DNA of 29,356 bases from Parvularia atlantis (Eukaryota > Opisthokonta > Rotosphaerida), in the NCBI GenBank assembly GCA_943704415.1, contig CALSCO010002191.1, forward strand, positions 1 to 29,356. Reading direction: 5' to 3'. The notes beneath the pieces were generated by a model. The model searched no databases, was not told the DNA's origin, and saw nothing but the letters and a program-made list of their open reading frames with translations. The number at the start of each line of letters is the position of its first letter. The stretch's first letter is position 1. Position numbers and translations under genes: made by a program. Positions 4,606 to 29,356 of this stretch are shown one piece after another.

Positions 4606-7600
4606 AATGGGCGGCGCGTCCTCTCGGCCCGTGGTGCGTGCTGGGCGTCGCCACCGTGGCGCGTGTGCGCGCGCAGTGTGCTGACGGTGCGCCGCGCTGC
4701 GCGCTGGCCAGGCCGAGCCGGCCGCGGCGGCGCCCAAGCCGGTGCGTGCTGCACCGCGCCCGCTGAGACCCTTGCCCACCACAACAACGACGCGCAGATG
4801 CCGCCCGAGGCCGAGCTCGAGGCGCGTTTCGTCAAGAGCATCAACGACCTCAACCTGCCCAAGGCCGAGATGGAGCGCATGATGGCCCTGCCGCCCGAGA
4901 AAAAGTGGCAGCTCGTGCAGGAGTCGGAGCAGAAAGTACGCGGCGTCGCGCGGCCGAGGCGTGAACGTGACGCGCACGCGCGCGCAGGACGAGGGCAAGC
5001 CGCCCGAGCACTACCTGTTCCAGCTGCGGCGGCACCTCGACCCGGCCATCGTCAAGCGCAAGCAACGCAAGCGCGCCTTGCCGCGCGACCTCGCGCCGGC
5101 GGCCGACGTGCTCAAGTGCACCCGCTCGAGATTTGTCGGCGCATGCTGACGCGGCGCACACGCACAGGGAGATCGAGATCTCACTCCGCACGCGCCCGCT
5201 CAAGTGGGTCAAGGAGTTTGTCGACGACCCCAACCGCGGCTACTTCAAGGTCGTCGAGTACCTGCAGACGCTTGGCGGCGAGGACGATCGGCGCGAGATC
5301 TTCCTCTGCGTGCTCGCGCTCAAGGCGCTCAGTGCGTGCGCGTGCGCGCCGCGCGCCGCCCGCACTGAGCGCCTCACACGCCGGCAGTGAACAACGACTA
5401 CGGCTTTAGCCACGTGATGGAGCACCCAGAGTCGATCGACATCATCACCCACTGCCTGCGCTGGAACGACGCCAAGACAAGCGCGCTCGTGCTCGACCTG
5501 CTGGCGGCCGTGTGCCTCGTGGGCATCAAGGACGGCGGGCACGCGCGCACGCTCGCGGCGTTCGAGAAGTTCAAGAAGACCATGGACGAGCCCACGCGCT
5601 TCATCACCCTCGTCGAGCGTCTGCGCGACCCGGACAGCCCCGTCGAGCTGCAGGTGCGCTACGTGCGCGCGCCCGCACCGACCGCCGCTGCTCACTGCGC
5701 GCACGCGGCGGGGGGCGTCTGCGCAGGCCGCGTGCCTGTCGTTCATCAACGTGCTCGTGCACTCGGTCGACGACCTCAACTTCCGCGTCTACCTGCAGGC
5801 ACGCCGCAGCCCAACATGGTGCGGGCGCTGACCGGCAGTGCGCTGCGTGCACAGTATGAGTTCACACTGCTCAAGCTCGACGAGATCCTGCAAGAGCTGA
5901 CGCGGCAGGACGCGGACCAGCTCAACCTGCATCTCGACAGCTACCGCGGCAACTTTGTTAACGTCGAAATGCTCTCGCTCGGCATGGGCATGGCCACGCA
6001 CACGTCCACCTCGGGCCTGACAACCGTCGTGCACAAGGCCGAGCCAAGCAAGTCCAACGTGATGAACGTCGTGCCAAAGGAGTTCCTGGACGAGCAGGAG
6101 CGGCTCAAGGCCGAGCACGCCGCGGCGCAGACGACCGTCCAAGGGCTCGAGAAGACCGTGACCGACCTCAGGGTCGCGCGCGACCTGCTCGAGGCCACCG
6201 TGAGCGAGCGCGACGCCGAGCTGCAGCGCCTGCGCCAGGCGATCGCGACCAAGGACGAGGAGATGACGCGGGCGGTCGAGGCGGCCAAGGCCGCTGGCGC
6301 CGCTGGCGCACCCGCTGCGGCGCTTGCAGGGGCGGCGACAGTCGAGAGCAAGCCACCCGCGGGCGATGAGAACGCCGCGCCGAGCAGCACAGGACCGCCA
6401 CCGCCACCGCCTCCACCCGGCCCGGAGACCGCGGGCGGGGCGCCTCCGCCGCCACCACCACCGCCGCCGCCACCGGGCCCGGGCGGTGCAAGTGGGCCAC
6501 CACCGCCGCCGCCGCCGCCACCGCCACCGCCCGGTGCGATGCTACTGGAGGCTGATGCGCACGGCTGACACACACGCGCGCCAGGTCCCGGAGGCGCGCC
6601 GCCGGCCCCGCCGCCGCCCGGCATGGGCATGGGCGTGGCGTCGCCGGTGCAGAAGCGGCGCATCGCGACCGACCTGCCGCTGCCCGCGCTCAACTGGACA
6701 CCGTTGACGGCGATCGAGAACACGGTCTTCAAGCAGCTTGATGACGAGGCCGTGCTCGCCAAGATCGACCAGCGCGAGTTTGAGCAAAAGTGCGTCCCCG
6801 CCTGCGGTGACGTTGCGCGTGCGCTTGCTCAGGCGCGCGCGTGCGCAGGTTCCAGCGTGTGTCCAAGAAGGACGCCGAGGCGCTCGAGGACGCCGACATG
6901 CCGCAGTCCAAGCCGACCAACGCGAGCAAGATGAAGATGGCCGAGGTGACGCGCGCGCTGCCCGGCCGCGCACCCGCTCATGCACTGACCCGCGCGCGCA
7001 GGTGGCCGTGGTCGACCCGAACCGCTCACGCAACACGGTCATCGCCAAGCGGCGCGTCGGCCTCAAGGTGGACGACCTCAAGGATGGTGCGCGTCCTTCC
7101 GTGCGCAGTGGGCGGCCTCGCGATGACCGCGCATCGCAGCGATCAATACGTGCAACACTGGACGCCTGCGCGGCGAGCTCGTCAACCTGTTGCTCAAGGT
7201 GCTGCCGACGCCGGACGAGAGCGCGGCGCTGGCGGACCACGCGCACGAGCTCGACAAGCTCGCGGTGCGTGCGTGGCGCATGCGAGGGCCGTACTCTGAC
7301 GCGTGCTGCAGGAGGGTGACGTGTTCATGTACCACCTGTCGACGATCGAGCGCGTCGAGCAGAAGCTGCGCGTGATGCTCTTCATGGAGACGTTCGAGGA
7401 CACGTACGCGAGCGTTGCGCCCGACGTGGCCGCCGTGATTGCCGCGTGCACGGCCGTACGCAACAGCAAAAAGCTCCAGCGCGTGCTGGAGGTCGTGTTG
7501 GGTGCGCTGCCAAACCCGCGCGATACGGGCGTGCTGAGGATGGTCGCCAGCGCTCGGCAACGTCATGAACAGCGCCAAGCGCGGCGGCGCGTGGGGCTTC

Positions 7601-24300: not shown

Positions 24301-24503
24301 GCAAGACCACGACGACCGCGACGGCGGCGGAGGCAGACGGCGCGGCGATGTCGGACGAGGACAAGATGCGTCTGCAGCTGTCGCTTGACACAGTACGGTT
24401 CGAGCAGGAGCTGTGCGCGCTCGCGCGGCACTCGCCCAGGCTCGAAGACGTGCGCCGGGCGGCGCTGGCGCTGCAGCAGGCACAGGCCGACACGCGGCCC
24501 TAG
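21371..24503 (+). CDS. COG2: Conserved oligomeric Golgi complex subunit 2
   Basis: COG2 is a lobe-A subunit of the COG tether for retrograde intra-Golgi vesicles. Exon 1 is only MAAQ, followed by an intron ending 21466; exon 2 reads DNGAGPALPVLCFAPAAFGA and QFDVDAFISAQRSVVSLERL. After the next intron, HLKSDLVELINNDYADFINL and STNLAGLDKALEHIRAPV form the COG2 N-terminal signature. Middle exons include LLNINDSVQKVEELLGI, VTEMLKQSLEALFLEGI-like sequence and MRFVGDFEAQLPSVAAVQAL. The C-terminal exon has LVTEVLQTVRKTEDTLQRLK, then DEDKMRLQLSLDTVRFEQEL and ends QADTRP at 24503, matching the COG2 tail. The gene contains about a dozen GTGCG-type introns. Its stop is 47 bases from the stop of the methylase gene. 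Confidence 0.9.
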
Positions 24504-24550: not shown

Positions 24551-27500
24551 TCACTCGCCTGGTGCTCCGGCAGGCGCCCTCTTCACAAAAATGAGCAGGA
24601 GATCGTGCACGATCGGCAGATGCTCGATCTCGTGCGCTGCGCGCTGCGCCTGGGGCTCGGTCGGCACAAACGCGTCGCTCCTGGCGGCGTCGGCGTACGT
24701 GAGCGCGGGCGGAACGAAACAAGCGATCACACGCGCGACACACTTGGTCTTGGAGAAGCGTTGCGGCGCAACCGCGACGATCTCCTTCAGCGCCAGGCCC
24801 AGCGCCCGCAGCGGGCCCTCGAGGTCGCTCCAGATCAGCAGCCCGAGCGGCCATAGCGTGATGCACTTGCACGTCTCGCACGGGAAGCGGCGGTCGCGCG
24901 CACCAACGGCAAGCACACTGCATCGGCGTCAGACCGCGCGGAGAGTGCACAGCAAGGCGCACCCGCCGAGGCAGAGGCTGCGGGCTGCTTCGGTGCTGCG
25001 CGCGAGCACCGTACCGCGCCACTGCTCGACCTCGCGCAGTGACGTGACCGTGAGCGGGTCAATGAACACCAGGTTGACCGCCGGCTGGCTTGCGATGGCG
25101 GCAAGCGGCGCGGCGCCAGGCTCGGGCGCGGCGGCGTCGAGCTCGATGAGGTCGCTGCGCTCGCGCGCGAGGCGGCGCATGATGCCTGCAACACACGCAG
25201 TGCATCAGCACCGTCCGTTCGGCAGCGGTCCGCCGCACCCTGCAGGTCCTCGTCCAGGTCGCGCAGCGCCGCGGCCGACGCGCCCGCCATGCTCTCGTCG
25301 GTCGACAGCAGACCGAGCACCTGCAGCAGGCGGTTGTTGCTCTGCACTCGGCGGTTCTTCTCGACCTCGTAGGCCGACAGACCCTCGCCCTCCTCCTGCG
25401 CCGGCAGCTGCGCGCGACGTCAGACACCATTGCTTGCCCACGCGAGAGTACACGCACCTCTGTCTCTATCGGCACGTCTTCGGCCGCGGGCGCTTCACCG
25501 GACACAGGTGCAACAGGCTCCATGGCAGACGGCTCGGTCAGCCACCGCACGTGGTTCCAGCGCTGGCCCGGCGAGGCGAAGCGGCCGACCTGCACGCGCA
25601 TCAGGCCATCAGCGGGCGGCCAGCTCGCGTGCGCGAGGGAGGCAGCCGCACCACTTGCGCGCACGTGCGGTCGACGAGGTCGCGCGTCGTCGTCGTCGGG
25701 AAGCACCACACCGTCCCCAGCACCTTGCACTGCGCCGAGAACGACGACGGCGGCACGACATCGCGTGCGCACTCGGTCGGCAGCAGCGAGACGTCGACGA
25801 CACGTCTTTCCGCGAGCGCCTGCAGCGGCGCCGTGCGGCAGAGGCAGGCTGCGGTGGCGTAAGCCCTTCAGCGCTGCCCTGGCCATGCTTGTGAGCGCGC
25901 ACCGTCCAGCTCGACGAGCGGGTCCGGGTTGCGCAGCACGGCGATAAACTCGTGCGTGATTATCAGAAAGTCGTGCAGCATCGAGAGCGACGCGCCCTTG
26001 GCCGTGCCCGAGCAGCAGCGCTGGCGCTTGACGATCTGTCGCGACGGGCGTGAAGCCAGCGCGCACGACCGAGAGCGCCCGCGCCGCACCAGCTCCTCGA
26101 GCGCAAAGCCGGCCTCCATGTACGCCCGCACGGTCACGAACGAGACCGGGATGACGAAGCAGTGCTCTCGGTTGTCGCCGATGCCGAGCGTGCACCGCTT
26201 GCCCGGCTTGAGGACGCGGCTATGTGCATGCACGCGCACGTGAGGCGACGCGCGCAGCTGGCGCGTGCGCGCAGTCGTCACGCACCGCGTCTCGCACGCG
26301 ACATGGCCGATCTGTTGCGCAAACGTCTGCACGAGCGCGGGACCGTGAGCATGCGTTGCACCCGGCCGCAGCAGGAGCGAGCACACCTGCAGGTCCGGGC
26401 TGCGCGACAGGTCCTCGTCCAGGTGCGCCGAGTATACGATGCAGCGGAAGTAGGGCGGGTGCGAGAGCACGTGGTCGAACGACGCGGCGCGGAAAAGGTG
26501 CCCTGGACGACCGCGCGCAGCGCATCAGCACGCGCACGCACGCAGTCGCGCAGCGTTCACGCGTGCACCCTGCAGCTTGAGCGCATTGGCCATGATCAGC
26601 GTCGGGCGGCGGTCGGCGCGCATGACCGCCTGCAGCTCGGGCGGGACCGCAAACGTGCAGTTGCGCTGCGACAGGGCTGGCCACGGGGGAGGCGGGCATC
26701 AGCGACTGCTCGCGTGCACGTCCGCAGCCAGCGCGCACCGACGGCCATTGCGTTGATGTCAACGCCGACGGCCTTGCGCCCGAGCAAGAACGCCTCAATT
26801 ACATCGGTGCCGCGGCCGAGGAAGTTGGACAAGACGCGGTCTGCGGCGCGAGCGCGTGCTCAACGACCGCGGCTGCGCGTCAAGCCCGCTCAGGCGCACC
26901 GCCCTCGTCCGTGAAGCGCTGCAGCGCCCAGCGCACGATCTGCGGCAGCCACGTCCCGCTGTAGTCCGAAGACGAGTGCGAGGCCCCTGCCCACGATCGC
27001 CAACGGTCAGTGCGCGAGCGCACGGCACGCAAGCGCGGACGCACAGCGCGGGGCGCGCCCGGGGACGTCGAAGAACGTCGTCGGCAGACCGAGTGAGTAG
27101 AGCTGGTCCGCCGCGGGCGCGTACGACGGCAGGTATAGCGGCCGCTGCGAGCGCGCGACGGCGGCAGCGCTCTCGTCCGTGCGCGTGGACGAGCTGTGCG
27201 CGCGCACAAGTCACTGTGAGCAACACACGCCGCGGCGCTTAAGCGCTCTGGCGCACAAGACGCGACGCGTGAGGTACGGCTGGTGCGCGTAATCCTCAAC
27301 CGCGGCCGTGTACTCAGTGCGGTCTTCGCCCAGCCTGCGCGCCAACCATCAGTCGCGTGCGCTCACACGTGTCGGTGCACACGCACGCGTCAAACATGTC
27401 CTCCTGCGCCAGGTCGTCCTGGCCCGCCAGCTGGTCCACCATCGACTCGCTGGCGCAGCGGCCGCACATGATCACGCCGTGGAAGCCTGCTCGCCGCACA

Positions 27501-29241
27501 TGAGCGGTGCCACCACAACGGCACGTCGCGCACCGCGTCGCCACTCGGTGCTGTCCGTGGTCGAGCAGTAGAAGCACTGCGTGGACACCGCCGCTTGCTG
27601 CTCAGAGCGGTGCCGCCTTGGCCGCGCCTTGGCCGTGTGCTTGGGATCCTGCGCGCCGTTGGCGGCGTCGCTCACGAAGGCTGCCGACGCGCTGAGCACG
27701 ACGCACGGCACACACCAGCCGGGCACGCACCATTCTCGTCGGTCGTCTTGAAGCACTCGCGGCCGTGCATGTGGTACAGAGGCTCGCGCTGCACGGGCGG
27801 CGACGAAGGCGCAGCGGTTGCCGTGCTGGGCTCGCGCTCGGCCTCGTGCATGGCGTCGCTCCCGACACGCTCGAGGACAGGGCTGGCCTCGGGCGTCAGC
27901 GTGTGCTCGACTCGGGCCTGCTTGGCCGGCGGCGCGTCAGTCTCGAGCCTGCGGCGCCGCCAGCTCAGCGTTCGCGCGCAGTCGTCTCTCATCGGGTCGG
28001 TGCACCGCTCGAAGCACTCGTGGCACAGGTCGAAGCCATTCCAATACGACTCGCACTGCTCGCACGAGCGCCACGAGTCCTGGAGCAGCTTCTGGCAGCC
28101 GTCGCAGTTGATCAGATACTTGTACGTCTCTGCCGCGCGGACGTAAGTGCCCGGACAACGCCACCACGGGCTGCACCGCACACCGCTCGTGCGCGTCTCG
28201 TCGTGCTGCGCACACCAGTACAGCACGCCGCGCTCAAACGACTCGGGCGCTCGGCCGCAGCAACGCACATGGAAGCTGCGCGTGCGTGAATCGTCAGCGG
28301 GCGTCAGCTTCCCGTGCGGGCTGCGCACCTCTTGTTGCAGCGGATGTCGAGGCAGCCGATTGTCGCACCCTTCTTGCCGCACCCGGTGCACTTCTGCAGT
28401 CACGCGCAGCACGTCAGGCGTCTGGCACGGCGGGCCACGCACAGGCACGCACGATGCGCTTGCCGCGGCGCACCGCGCTGGCCACGTTGAACCACGAGCC
28501 TGCGTCCCGGCAGAGCACCTCGGGCGACGCGAGCGCGCACGCTGCACACGCACGCGTGAGCGCCACAGAGCCCATCGGCTGGCCACGCACCGCGGTGGAT
28601 CCAGAAGTACGACACAGGGCCGCGCGGGTGCGTGAGTGCAAACGGCACGCTGCTCACGAACGGCCCGTACTCGGGTCCCTCGGCCTCGTCGCACAGCTCG
28701 CACACAAGGTCCTTGCTGCGGGTCGCGCGTGGCGTGCGTTAACGACACGCCGCCGCCGCCGCGGGGACGCACCGGCTCAGCAGCATCTCGAACTCCGACT
28801 GCGGCTGGCGCAGGGTCTCCCACTCGGGCAGGAAGCGGTCGGGCTTGAGCACCTTGCCCGCCGCGCTGGCGTCTGGTTGCACATGTTGCTCAGTGGCGCC
28901 GTCACAAGCGCAGCACGGCCGCGCACCCTCGGTCCAGAGGTCCTCGCGGATCGCCTCGAGCGCAAACGACTCACGCGGGTGCGGGTGCGACAGTGGGAAG
29001 TTGAGCTGGAAGCACGCGGTGCACAGGTCATAGCTGCGACACGAGCGCGTGAGCAAGAAAGACCATATGCACGGAATGCCGGTCCGACGCGCGTGTTGAG
29101 CGAGTCCTCGCGCGTCTCGCAGTACTGGCACGAGTAGCGCACGTGATGGATGCCTGCGTGCGGCGTCAGCGGCTGTACTGCGCAAGGGCAGGGCGCCCGG
29201 CGCACCGTGCTGGCAGTTGTCGCAGCGGAACCACGCGGAAG
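24551..29241 (-). CDS. Multi-finger (ZZ-ePHD-ZZ-GATA) DNA methylase fusion, 5' partial
   Basis: Spliced reading gives one continuous frame of roughly 1,100-1,200 residues. In order: a ZZ-like finger (AWFRCDNCQ then YDLCTACFQ); an ePHD (VCELCDEAEGPEYGPF, WIHRACALASPEVLC, CTGCGKKGATIGC, NKSFHVRC, YWCAQHDE); a second ZZ-like finger (INCDGCQ, SCEQCES, FDLCHECFE); and a GATA-type finger (CFYCSTTDSTEWRRG then MCGRC). Next comes a methylase domain (LYLPSYAPAADQLYSLGLP, GTWLPQIVRWALQRFTDEG, NFLGRGTDVIEAFLLGRKAV, LSHPPYF, RVLKPGKRCTLGIGDNREHC). The tail has LSAYEVEKNRRVQSNNRLL, LVFIDPL, CETCKCITLWPLGLLIWSDL and HLPIVHDLLLIFVKR. About 22 introns are used. The gene starts beyond the window. One intron inside the first ZZ-like finger could not be fixed. 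The base modified (N6-adenine or N4-cytosine) is not known. Confidence 0.72.
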
Positions 29242-29255
29242 CTGCGCGCGCGCGC

Positions 29256-29270
29256 GAGAGAGAGAGAGAG

Positions 29271-29356
<86 letters not shown>
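29256..29356. repeat. (GA)n microsatellite at the window edge
   Basis: About 100 bases of GA dinucleotides with one interruption (AGCGAG at 29271). Read on the minus strand it is a (CT)n tract followed by GCGCGCAG, so it would be the pyrimidine tract of the intron just before the first visible ZZ-like exon of the methylase gene. It continues to the end of the window and may mark an assembly break. Confidence 0.95.

Follow-up and report, generated by a model that had tools for sequence, protein, structure and literature searches.

Few eukaryotic DNA marks are known to be written by enzymes captured from prokaryotes, and the part of PMC12344493 available to us names the N4-methylcytosine (4mC) enzymes of Marchantia and A. 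vaga and a prokaryotic-type N6-methyladenine (6mA) enzyme of early fungi. In the accessible text of PMC8885841, the SPPY enzyme N4CMT of bdelloid rotifers is permuted and bears a chromodomain at its C terminus, replacement of SPPY abolishes 4mC, and the METTL3/4 types of the MT-A70 family are given the motif DPPW. AMT2/5, also of the MT-A70 family, carry C-terminal ZZ fingers whose function is described as not known in the available part of PMC12695648. Here we describe a gene on the minus strand of a 29,356-nt stretch of DNA from Parvularia atlantis (positions 1 to 29,356 of contig CALSCO010002191.1, assembly GCA_943704415.1), referred to below as the window; it constitutes contig C527, with 70% GC, of an assembly of 16.25 Mb in 616 contigs. 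We consider it probable that a single nuclear gene is present here, in a GC-rich unicellular eukaryote, and that its reader-type fingers stand before a captured Type II amino-methylase and bring it to chromatin. Iyer, Zhang and Aravind reportedly surveyed chromatin-fused amino-methylases of protists in 2016; in the literature that we searched, for the most part without subscription papers or that survey, no description of the order ZZ-ePHD-ZZ-GATA with this methylase was found. A preliminary description of the locus, made from the letters alone, had rightly pointed to related fusions such as the chromodomain-bearing N4CMT (PMC8885841), to which we add the ZZ-bearing AMT2/5 (PMC12695648), as far as the accessible parts of the two sources go.

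Gene model and zinc fingers

As far as the contig reaches, the gene occupies positions 24551..29241 of the minus strand and was modelled by hand splicing and by GC content at the codon positions. The minus strand was inspected in three frames, and the finger and methylase pieces, which lie in different frames, were linked by hand through introns. The joined frame has 23 exons and 1141 residues, contains no internal stop and closes with TGA at 24553-24551. From the N to the C terminus it encodes a ZZ finger, an extended PHD finger (ePHD), a second ZZ-like finger, a GATA-like finger, the DNA methylase and a C-terminal region of ∼365 residues. Its 22 introns measure 45–84 nt; 21 of them are GT-AG, 17 start with GTGCG and 21 end with CAG, a regularity that is partly one of choice, splice sites having been picked to preserve the frame. 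GC at codon positions 1, 2 and 3 of the spliced frame is 0.67, 0.51 and 0.89, and third-position GC stays between 0.80 and 0.93 in all eight blocks of the frame, indicating that the coding signal is unbroken between fingers and methylase. Directly beyond the stop, at 24502, an AT-rich stretch separates the fusion gene from its neighbour, and the most AT-rich 40-mer within the gene (24600–29200) reaches 55% AT at ∼25945, in a methylase exon. Given the uninterrupted frame, the even third-position GC and the lack of an AT-rich break, one continuous gene is the simplest reading, and fingers and methylase are probably fused.

Alternatively, two genes could give rise to two products, a finger-only protein that stops near 27315 and a methylase translated from its own message, with an ATG in the GATA exon as its start, an arrangement that we regard as improbable. 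When intron 9 is read unspliced, translation meets a stop at ∼27315, and a shorter message could conceivably begin at in-frame ATGs inside the GATA exon, beyond its last CxxC. However, intron 9 shares the GTGCGT...CAG form of the other introns, the junction has no AT-rich gap such as that at 24502, and the two genes would need to overlap. In addition, between the end of the GATA exon and the first conserved block of the methylase core, no ATG occurs in the frames used.

Two features of the model count against a single fused gene. The splicing was made by hand from DNA alone, and intron 2 (29034..29101, minus strand) is the weak point of the model: an in-frame GT-AG join sought by eye across 29101-29034 was not found, and the GC-AG taken instead is uncertain. 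Exon 3 may also hide one extra in-frame intron of 54 nt near 28927 (by eye). At the 5′ side, a CT/GA dinucleotide repeat at 29242-29356 truncates the gene at the contig end; its start apparently lies upstream of 29241, and by eye the CT repeat resembles the end of another intron.

The spliced protein was compared with Pfam using the cut-off, in bits, of each family. The N-terminal ZZ finger (C-x2-C ... RYSCQYC ... YDLCTAC; exons 1–3, 29000..29239, minus strand) matches Pfam ZZ at 1.5e-4 and 21.9 bits, above the cut-off of 21.4, a match that depends on intron 1 and on the uncertain intron 2. The ePHD (exons 4–7, 28203..28710, minus strand) matches zf-HC5HC2H at 7e-9 and 36.2 bits, above the cut-off of 29.1, which places it in the ePHD family of the KMT2D and PHF6 type; zf-HC5HC2H_2 also exceeds its cut-off (2.8e-8), and among PDB sequences the finger matches the ePHD of KMT2D (1.9e-8) and PHF6 (3.4e-7). 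When the pieces were searched unspliced, none of ten rose above a Pfam cut-off. The other two fingers weaken the proposed finger set. The second ZZ-like finger (CDGC ... CEQC ... FDLCHEC; 28005..28106, minus strand) reaches 0.025 and 15.2 bits with ZZ_ADA2, below the cut-off of 27.5, and the GATA-like finger (CFYCSTTDSTEWRRG ... CGRC; exons 8–9, 27455..27576, minus strand) reaches 2.1e-3 and 18.0 bits with Pfam GATA, below the cut-off of 26.8. Although the latter misses the Pfam threshold, its cysteine pattern and WRRG are present, and it matches a GATA-3 chain among PDB sequences at 0.006. By analogy with the ZZ and ePHD families only, the fingers would read histones. Elsewhere in the genome, the family zf-HC5HC2H has six more exon matches, on C29, C602, C495, C273 and C614, three of them above the cut-off.

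The single spliced frame from fingers to methylase that the preliminary description had proposed is borne out by the model. Of the limits given there, the stop end holds, whereas the gene likely begins upstream of the start, off the contig. As for the fingers named there, and the profile search of the spliced protein suggested as a check, the ePHD, the first ZZ and the methylase pass their cut-offs, whereas the second ZZ and the GATA finger are present but fall short.

The methylase domain, its relatives and the written base

Exons 11–18 (25903..27144, minus strand) encode a Type II restriction-modification amino-methylase domain, recognized by PADLOC, Pfam and its relatives. The S-adenosylmethionine (SAM)-binding motif I, NFLGRGTD (26803..26826, minus strand), lies upstream of the catalytic motif IV, HPPY (26450..26461, minus strand), in unpermuted order. 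In the spliced protein, Pfam N6_N4_Mtase matches at 5e-9 and 36.9 bits, above its cut-off of 26.7. With PADLOC, the Type II methylase model PDLC03376 gives 2.8e-34 and 117 bits over model positions 35–247 of 249, and the window methylase finds 2zie, a putative DNA modification methylase, among PDB sequences (1.4e-5).

Thirteen plasmid records matched the window methylase by tblastn, the best being Fusobacterium vincentii (E 4e-32, 30% identical across 97% of the domain), and four phage records matched, all partially. A two-row alignment of the window and F. vincentii methylases was scanned against genome_contigs (84,980 prokaryotic species, each represented by one genome) and gave 539 candidate stretches, with relatives encoded in 509 of them by tblastn; 80 were kept, at 34–39% identity. 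The same two-row scan found a relative on four viral contigs. The relative set comprised 85 loci (L003-L087), with open reading frames (ORFs) chosen by the motifs G-x-GT and HPPY; an ORF with G-x-GT before HPPY was present in 85/85, no locus failing. All 46 relatives scanned with Pfam contain N6_N4_Mtase, with methylase families only and no zinc-finger families at E 0.001. The closest identity between window and relatives is 39% by tblastn and 40% over 219 aligned columns. From these sequence comparisons we regard the identity of the domain as a methylase as firm and, on balance, assign it to the restriction-modification methylases by descent. The bacterial-like amino-methylase of the preliminary description is thus upheld by N6_N4_Mtase, PDLC03376 and the prokaryotic relatives, and its NFLGRGTD and HPPY signature is intact, the relatives sharing G-x-GT and HPPY.

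The donor group cannot be placed with the 86-row tree of window and relatives. A viral origin was considered and rejected: the window methylase alone matched no relative among 54 candidate viral stretches, a scan for the coding pattern of NFLGRGTD gave four stretches, none reading NFLGRGTD in any frame, and the four viral-contig relatives fall among bacterial rows in the tree. No cognate restriction enzyme was found among the 10 window ORFs scanned, the 5′ side lying beyond the contig and other ORFs being outside that scan.

To describe conservation, a column was called conserved when 85% or more of the 85 relatives had one residue in common, after 10 gap-majority columns had been dropped. The window residue is identical in 60 of the 99 conserved columns, and the positions retained include G-x-GT, the D and N of DIN, HPPY, GDxR, KxQ and HE. 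With G-x-GT of the SAM core and HPPY retained, the window methylase is likely to be catalytically active. Several observations speak against this and against a DNA substrate. Fixed residues are altered in the window (VLD to VLS, GNWSP to GTWLP and a fixed W to G), its end branch in the tree is 4.9 against a median of 0.12, making it very divergent, and it is the sole eukaryotic copy in the comparison; the long branch and altered residues may reflect changed or lost activity. The best NCBIfam match of the domain is TIGR01177 (2e-5, far below cut-off), and its best PHROG is a family whose function is not known (5.7e-15). Finally, in a fold search with an AlphaFold model of the bacterial relative L005, used in place of the spliced window protein (mean predicted local distance difference test 77, predicted template modelling score 0.54), 0 of the 50 matches listed is a named DNA methylase, and two-domain small-molecule and tRNA methylases rank first.

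These observations raise the possibility that the domain acts on RNA or protein, or that it binds SAM or DNA without catalysis and serves the reader as a borrowed scaffold. Besides the long branch and the altered residues, this would accord with the high-ranking Trm11-type tRNA methylases that the bacterial relatives yield in fold and profile searches, with TIGR01177, and with RNA-methylase Pfam models that also touch many relatives. However, the SAM and HPPY motifs are kept, the closest family model is the Type II DNA methylase at 117 bits, and most relatives stand in restriction-modification loci. Moreover, when a profile of 20 relatives and the window was searched against PDB sequences, the best match was 2zie (2.9e-17), the putative DNA modification methylase, ahead of the tRNA enzyme. 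We consider a substrate other than DNA, or loss of catalysis, unlikely and prefer a DNA amino-methylase.

Dam acts at GATC and AlwI at GGATC, and the substrate of DpnI is methylated GATC. According to the part of PMC3573125 available to us, DpnI and DpnII are enzymes of the GATC site, and the DpnII system of Streptococcus pneumoniae has a second methylase, DpnA, besides DpnM. We scanned 51 ORFs near the relatives (49 of the 88 nearest, plus two more from L003 and L004) and found the Pfam families DpnII (18), D12, of Dam type (11), DpnI (4), AlwI (1) and Mrr (1). Profiles built from some of the scanned ORFs were then applied to the 85 loci, where flanks are often short and counts are lower bounds: a DpnII-like ORF is present in at least 50, a D12-like ORF in at least 65, a DpnI-like ORF in at least 6 and any of the three in at least 75. 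These neighbours point to GATC as the site of the relatives. The THPPY enzyme, as we call the relatives after their motif, may by analogy fill a DpnA-like place, and the neighbourhood favours 6mA at GATC.

Two observations run counter to that picture. Ten of the 85 loci have no DpnII-, D12- or DpnI-like ORF in the available flank, including L005, L016, L019 and L084, the clade that holds the second-domain cases discussed below. In addition, a DpnI gene directly adjoins the THPPY methylase in L011, L017, L025, L050, L072 and L082, and all six of these neighbours contain both DpnI and DpnI_C domains (Pfam 4.3e-63 to 2.8e-77). Five of the six loci (L011, L017, L050, L072 and L082) have no D12-like ORF in the available stretch, and L011, L050, L072 and L082, but not L017, have no DpnII-like ORF there either. 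DpnI beside these six relatives argues against G6mATC at those loci, which weakens a direct step from a DpnII neighbourhood to 6mA; N4-cytosine methylation would avoid the conflict with DpnI. The neighbours fit both 6mA and 4mC and cannot tell N6-adenine from N4-cytosine. Among outcomes with an active enzyme we lean, by a little, towards 6mA as the written base, with 4mC given a substantial chance, somewhat short of even.

A possible second methylase in the C-terminal region

The C-terminal region (24554..25848, minus strand; ∼365 residues) could be a second methylase copy that has degenerated, so that the protein would form a pseudo-dimer within one molecule; this was addressed by shuffle tests, and we hold it only as a tentative reading, with odds below even. 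A precedent exists in L005 (Bacterium HR19), in which a degenerate copy is fused behind the active methylase, with an hhalign probability of 96.5 to the methylase profile, and in the AlphaFold model of L005 the helix-strand order is repeated in the tail. In L084, a viral contig, the second domain is encoded separately (ORF 5632-6168) and shares 39% identity with the L005 tail. The window region outscores its own reversed sequence with profiles lacking the window. Shuffles reached the observed score in 2/100 cases against the two second-domain rows and in 1/100 against the family profile without the window row (0/100 when that profile included the window row). By eye, short motifs also occur in matching order (TVWCFP, VFIDPL, AVGARDRR, LALKEIV and LPIVHDLLLIFVKR).

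Other results stand against a second methylase copy. The hhalign probabilities of the window region are just 0.7 and 2.9, with E-values of 0.077 and 0.015, a pairwise test against the L005 tail was not significant (24/300 shuffles as high), and hmmsearch with the family model gave E 0.34 and a negative score. The second domain is also rare: a long tail occurs in L005 only among the 85 relatives, and the L084 ORF, when searched for in the L016 and L019 genomes of the L005/L084 clade, matched only the main methylase or noise. The region may be a second methylase, but no test of this is significant.

The two bacterial and viral cases are of note in themselves: in L005:2743-4257 and L084:4839-6168 a degenerate second methylase domain accompanies a THPPY methylase, fused in the former and as a separate ORF in the latter. 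When the L084 second-domain ORF was sought in viral contigs, 19 candidate stretches yielded only the contig of L084 itself, and the sole plasmid match of the L005 tail was the F. vincentii methylase (6e-3).

Genome context and comparison with known systems

Ten window ORFs were scanned and nine matched, all with ordinary eukaryotic families: endonuclease V, a diaphanous formin, a mitochondrial carrier, TTL, PCNA, an AAA ATPase, a class II amidotransferase, and ORFs of eIF2B type and Zw10 type. These neighbours argue that the fusion gene is not a bacterial contaminant. A protein search with the window methylase against its own genome gave matches on C527 only. A second N6_N4_Mtase gene lies on contig C525 (L103, ∼480-2420, also L002), with matches to PHD (1.7e-6) and N6_N4_Mtase (7.8e-10). 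Its methylase piece is of GSGT type with DPPS upstream (by eye), a permuted order, and a weak CW-type finger perhaps stands in front (0.12, below cut-off). Like the fusion gene, it has a PHD finger ahead of an N6_N4_Mtase domain, but the PHD is simple and DPPS precedes the SAM motif, which argues for a separate fusion. MT-A70 has six exon matches on four contigs (C481, C550, C304 and C191), and the C5-cytosine methylase family PF00145 has one (C471:47720-47902).

In the reading that we favour, the catalytic domain would have been acquired long ago from a Type II methylase, bacterial or archaeal, of the family accompanying GATC-site systems; the fingers would dock the enzyme on nucleosomes or DNA in a certain state, and the methylase would then methylate adenine or cytosine of nearby DNA at the exocyclic amino group. 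In this way, DNA marks of bacterial type may be set according to the state of the chromatin. A more elaborate version, which we think rather unlikely as a whole, is a multi-reader enzyme in which the ePHD and ZZ fingers sense nucleosomes, HPPY writes 6mA or 4mC, and a degenerate bacterial-derived methylase in cis is the built-in partner, a role likened to that of the inactive partner in METTL3 or AMT1. If so, the lineage would have two captured DNA-writing systems, including the C525 gene, in addition to its native MT-A70 and C5-methylase genes. One more capture, drawn from another methylase subfamily and coupled to several readers, would show that restriction-modification enzymes have repeatedly been turned into chromatin writers. 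The presence of MT-A70 genes in one genome with the fusion means that a single organism could reveal which enzyme writes which mark, and under which chromatin state.

Among prokaryotic enzymes, the THPPY Type II methylases (PDLC03376) share the domain and the motif order of the fusion gene; at least 75 of 85 lie near restriction-modification genes, and, unlike in the fusion gene, zinc-finger families are absent from the 46 scanned. MetB of early-diverging fungi is, like the fusion gene, a bacterial adenine methylase captured by a eukaryote, but it belongs to PF02384, is MmeI-like and has a target recognition domain, and the accessible part of PMC11258239 makes no mention of chromatin fingers. 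With that different Pfam family assigned in the text available, MetB was ruled out as a relative of the window methylase. AMT2/5 resemble the fusion gene as eukaryotic amino-methylases bearing ZZ fingers; they differ in belonging to the MT-A70 family and in the C-terminal position of the ZZ fingers, and the available part of PMC12695648 mentions neither ePHD nor GATA. PF05063, the MT-A70 domain, is not among the Pfam matches of the spliced protein.

The closest comparison is with N4CMT, to the extent that the accessible text of PMC8885841 describes it. Like the fusion gene, N4CMT joins a bacterial-derived N6_N4_Mtase to a chromatin reader in an intron-bearing nuclear gene, and it likewise carries the idea of an enzyme that reads histones and writes on DNA. 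N4CMT is permuted, with SPPY before the SAM motif, whereas in the fusion gene the SAM motif (26826-26803) is ahead of HPPY (26461-26450). Its reader is a C-terminal chromodomain; none was found among the Pfam matches of the spliced protein up to E 1, the 5′ end lying beyond the contig. The readers of the fusion gene are instead N-terminal ZZ, ePHD and GATA-like fingers, with a long C-terminal region behind the methylase. The union of a captured methylase with a chromatin reader is thus known already, and what appears new, in the literature searched, is this variant, with its order of ZZ, ePHD, ZZ-like and GATA-like fingers.

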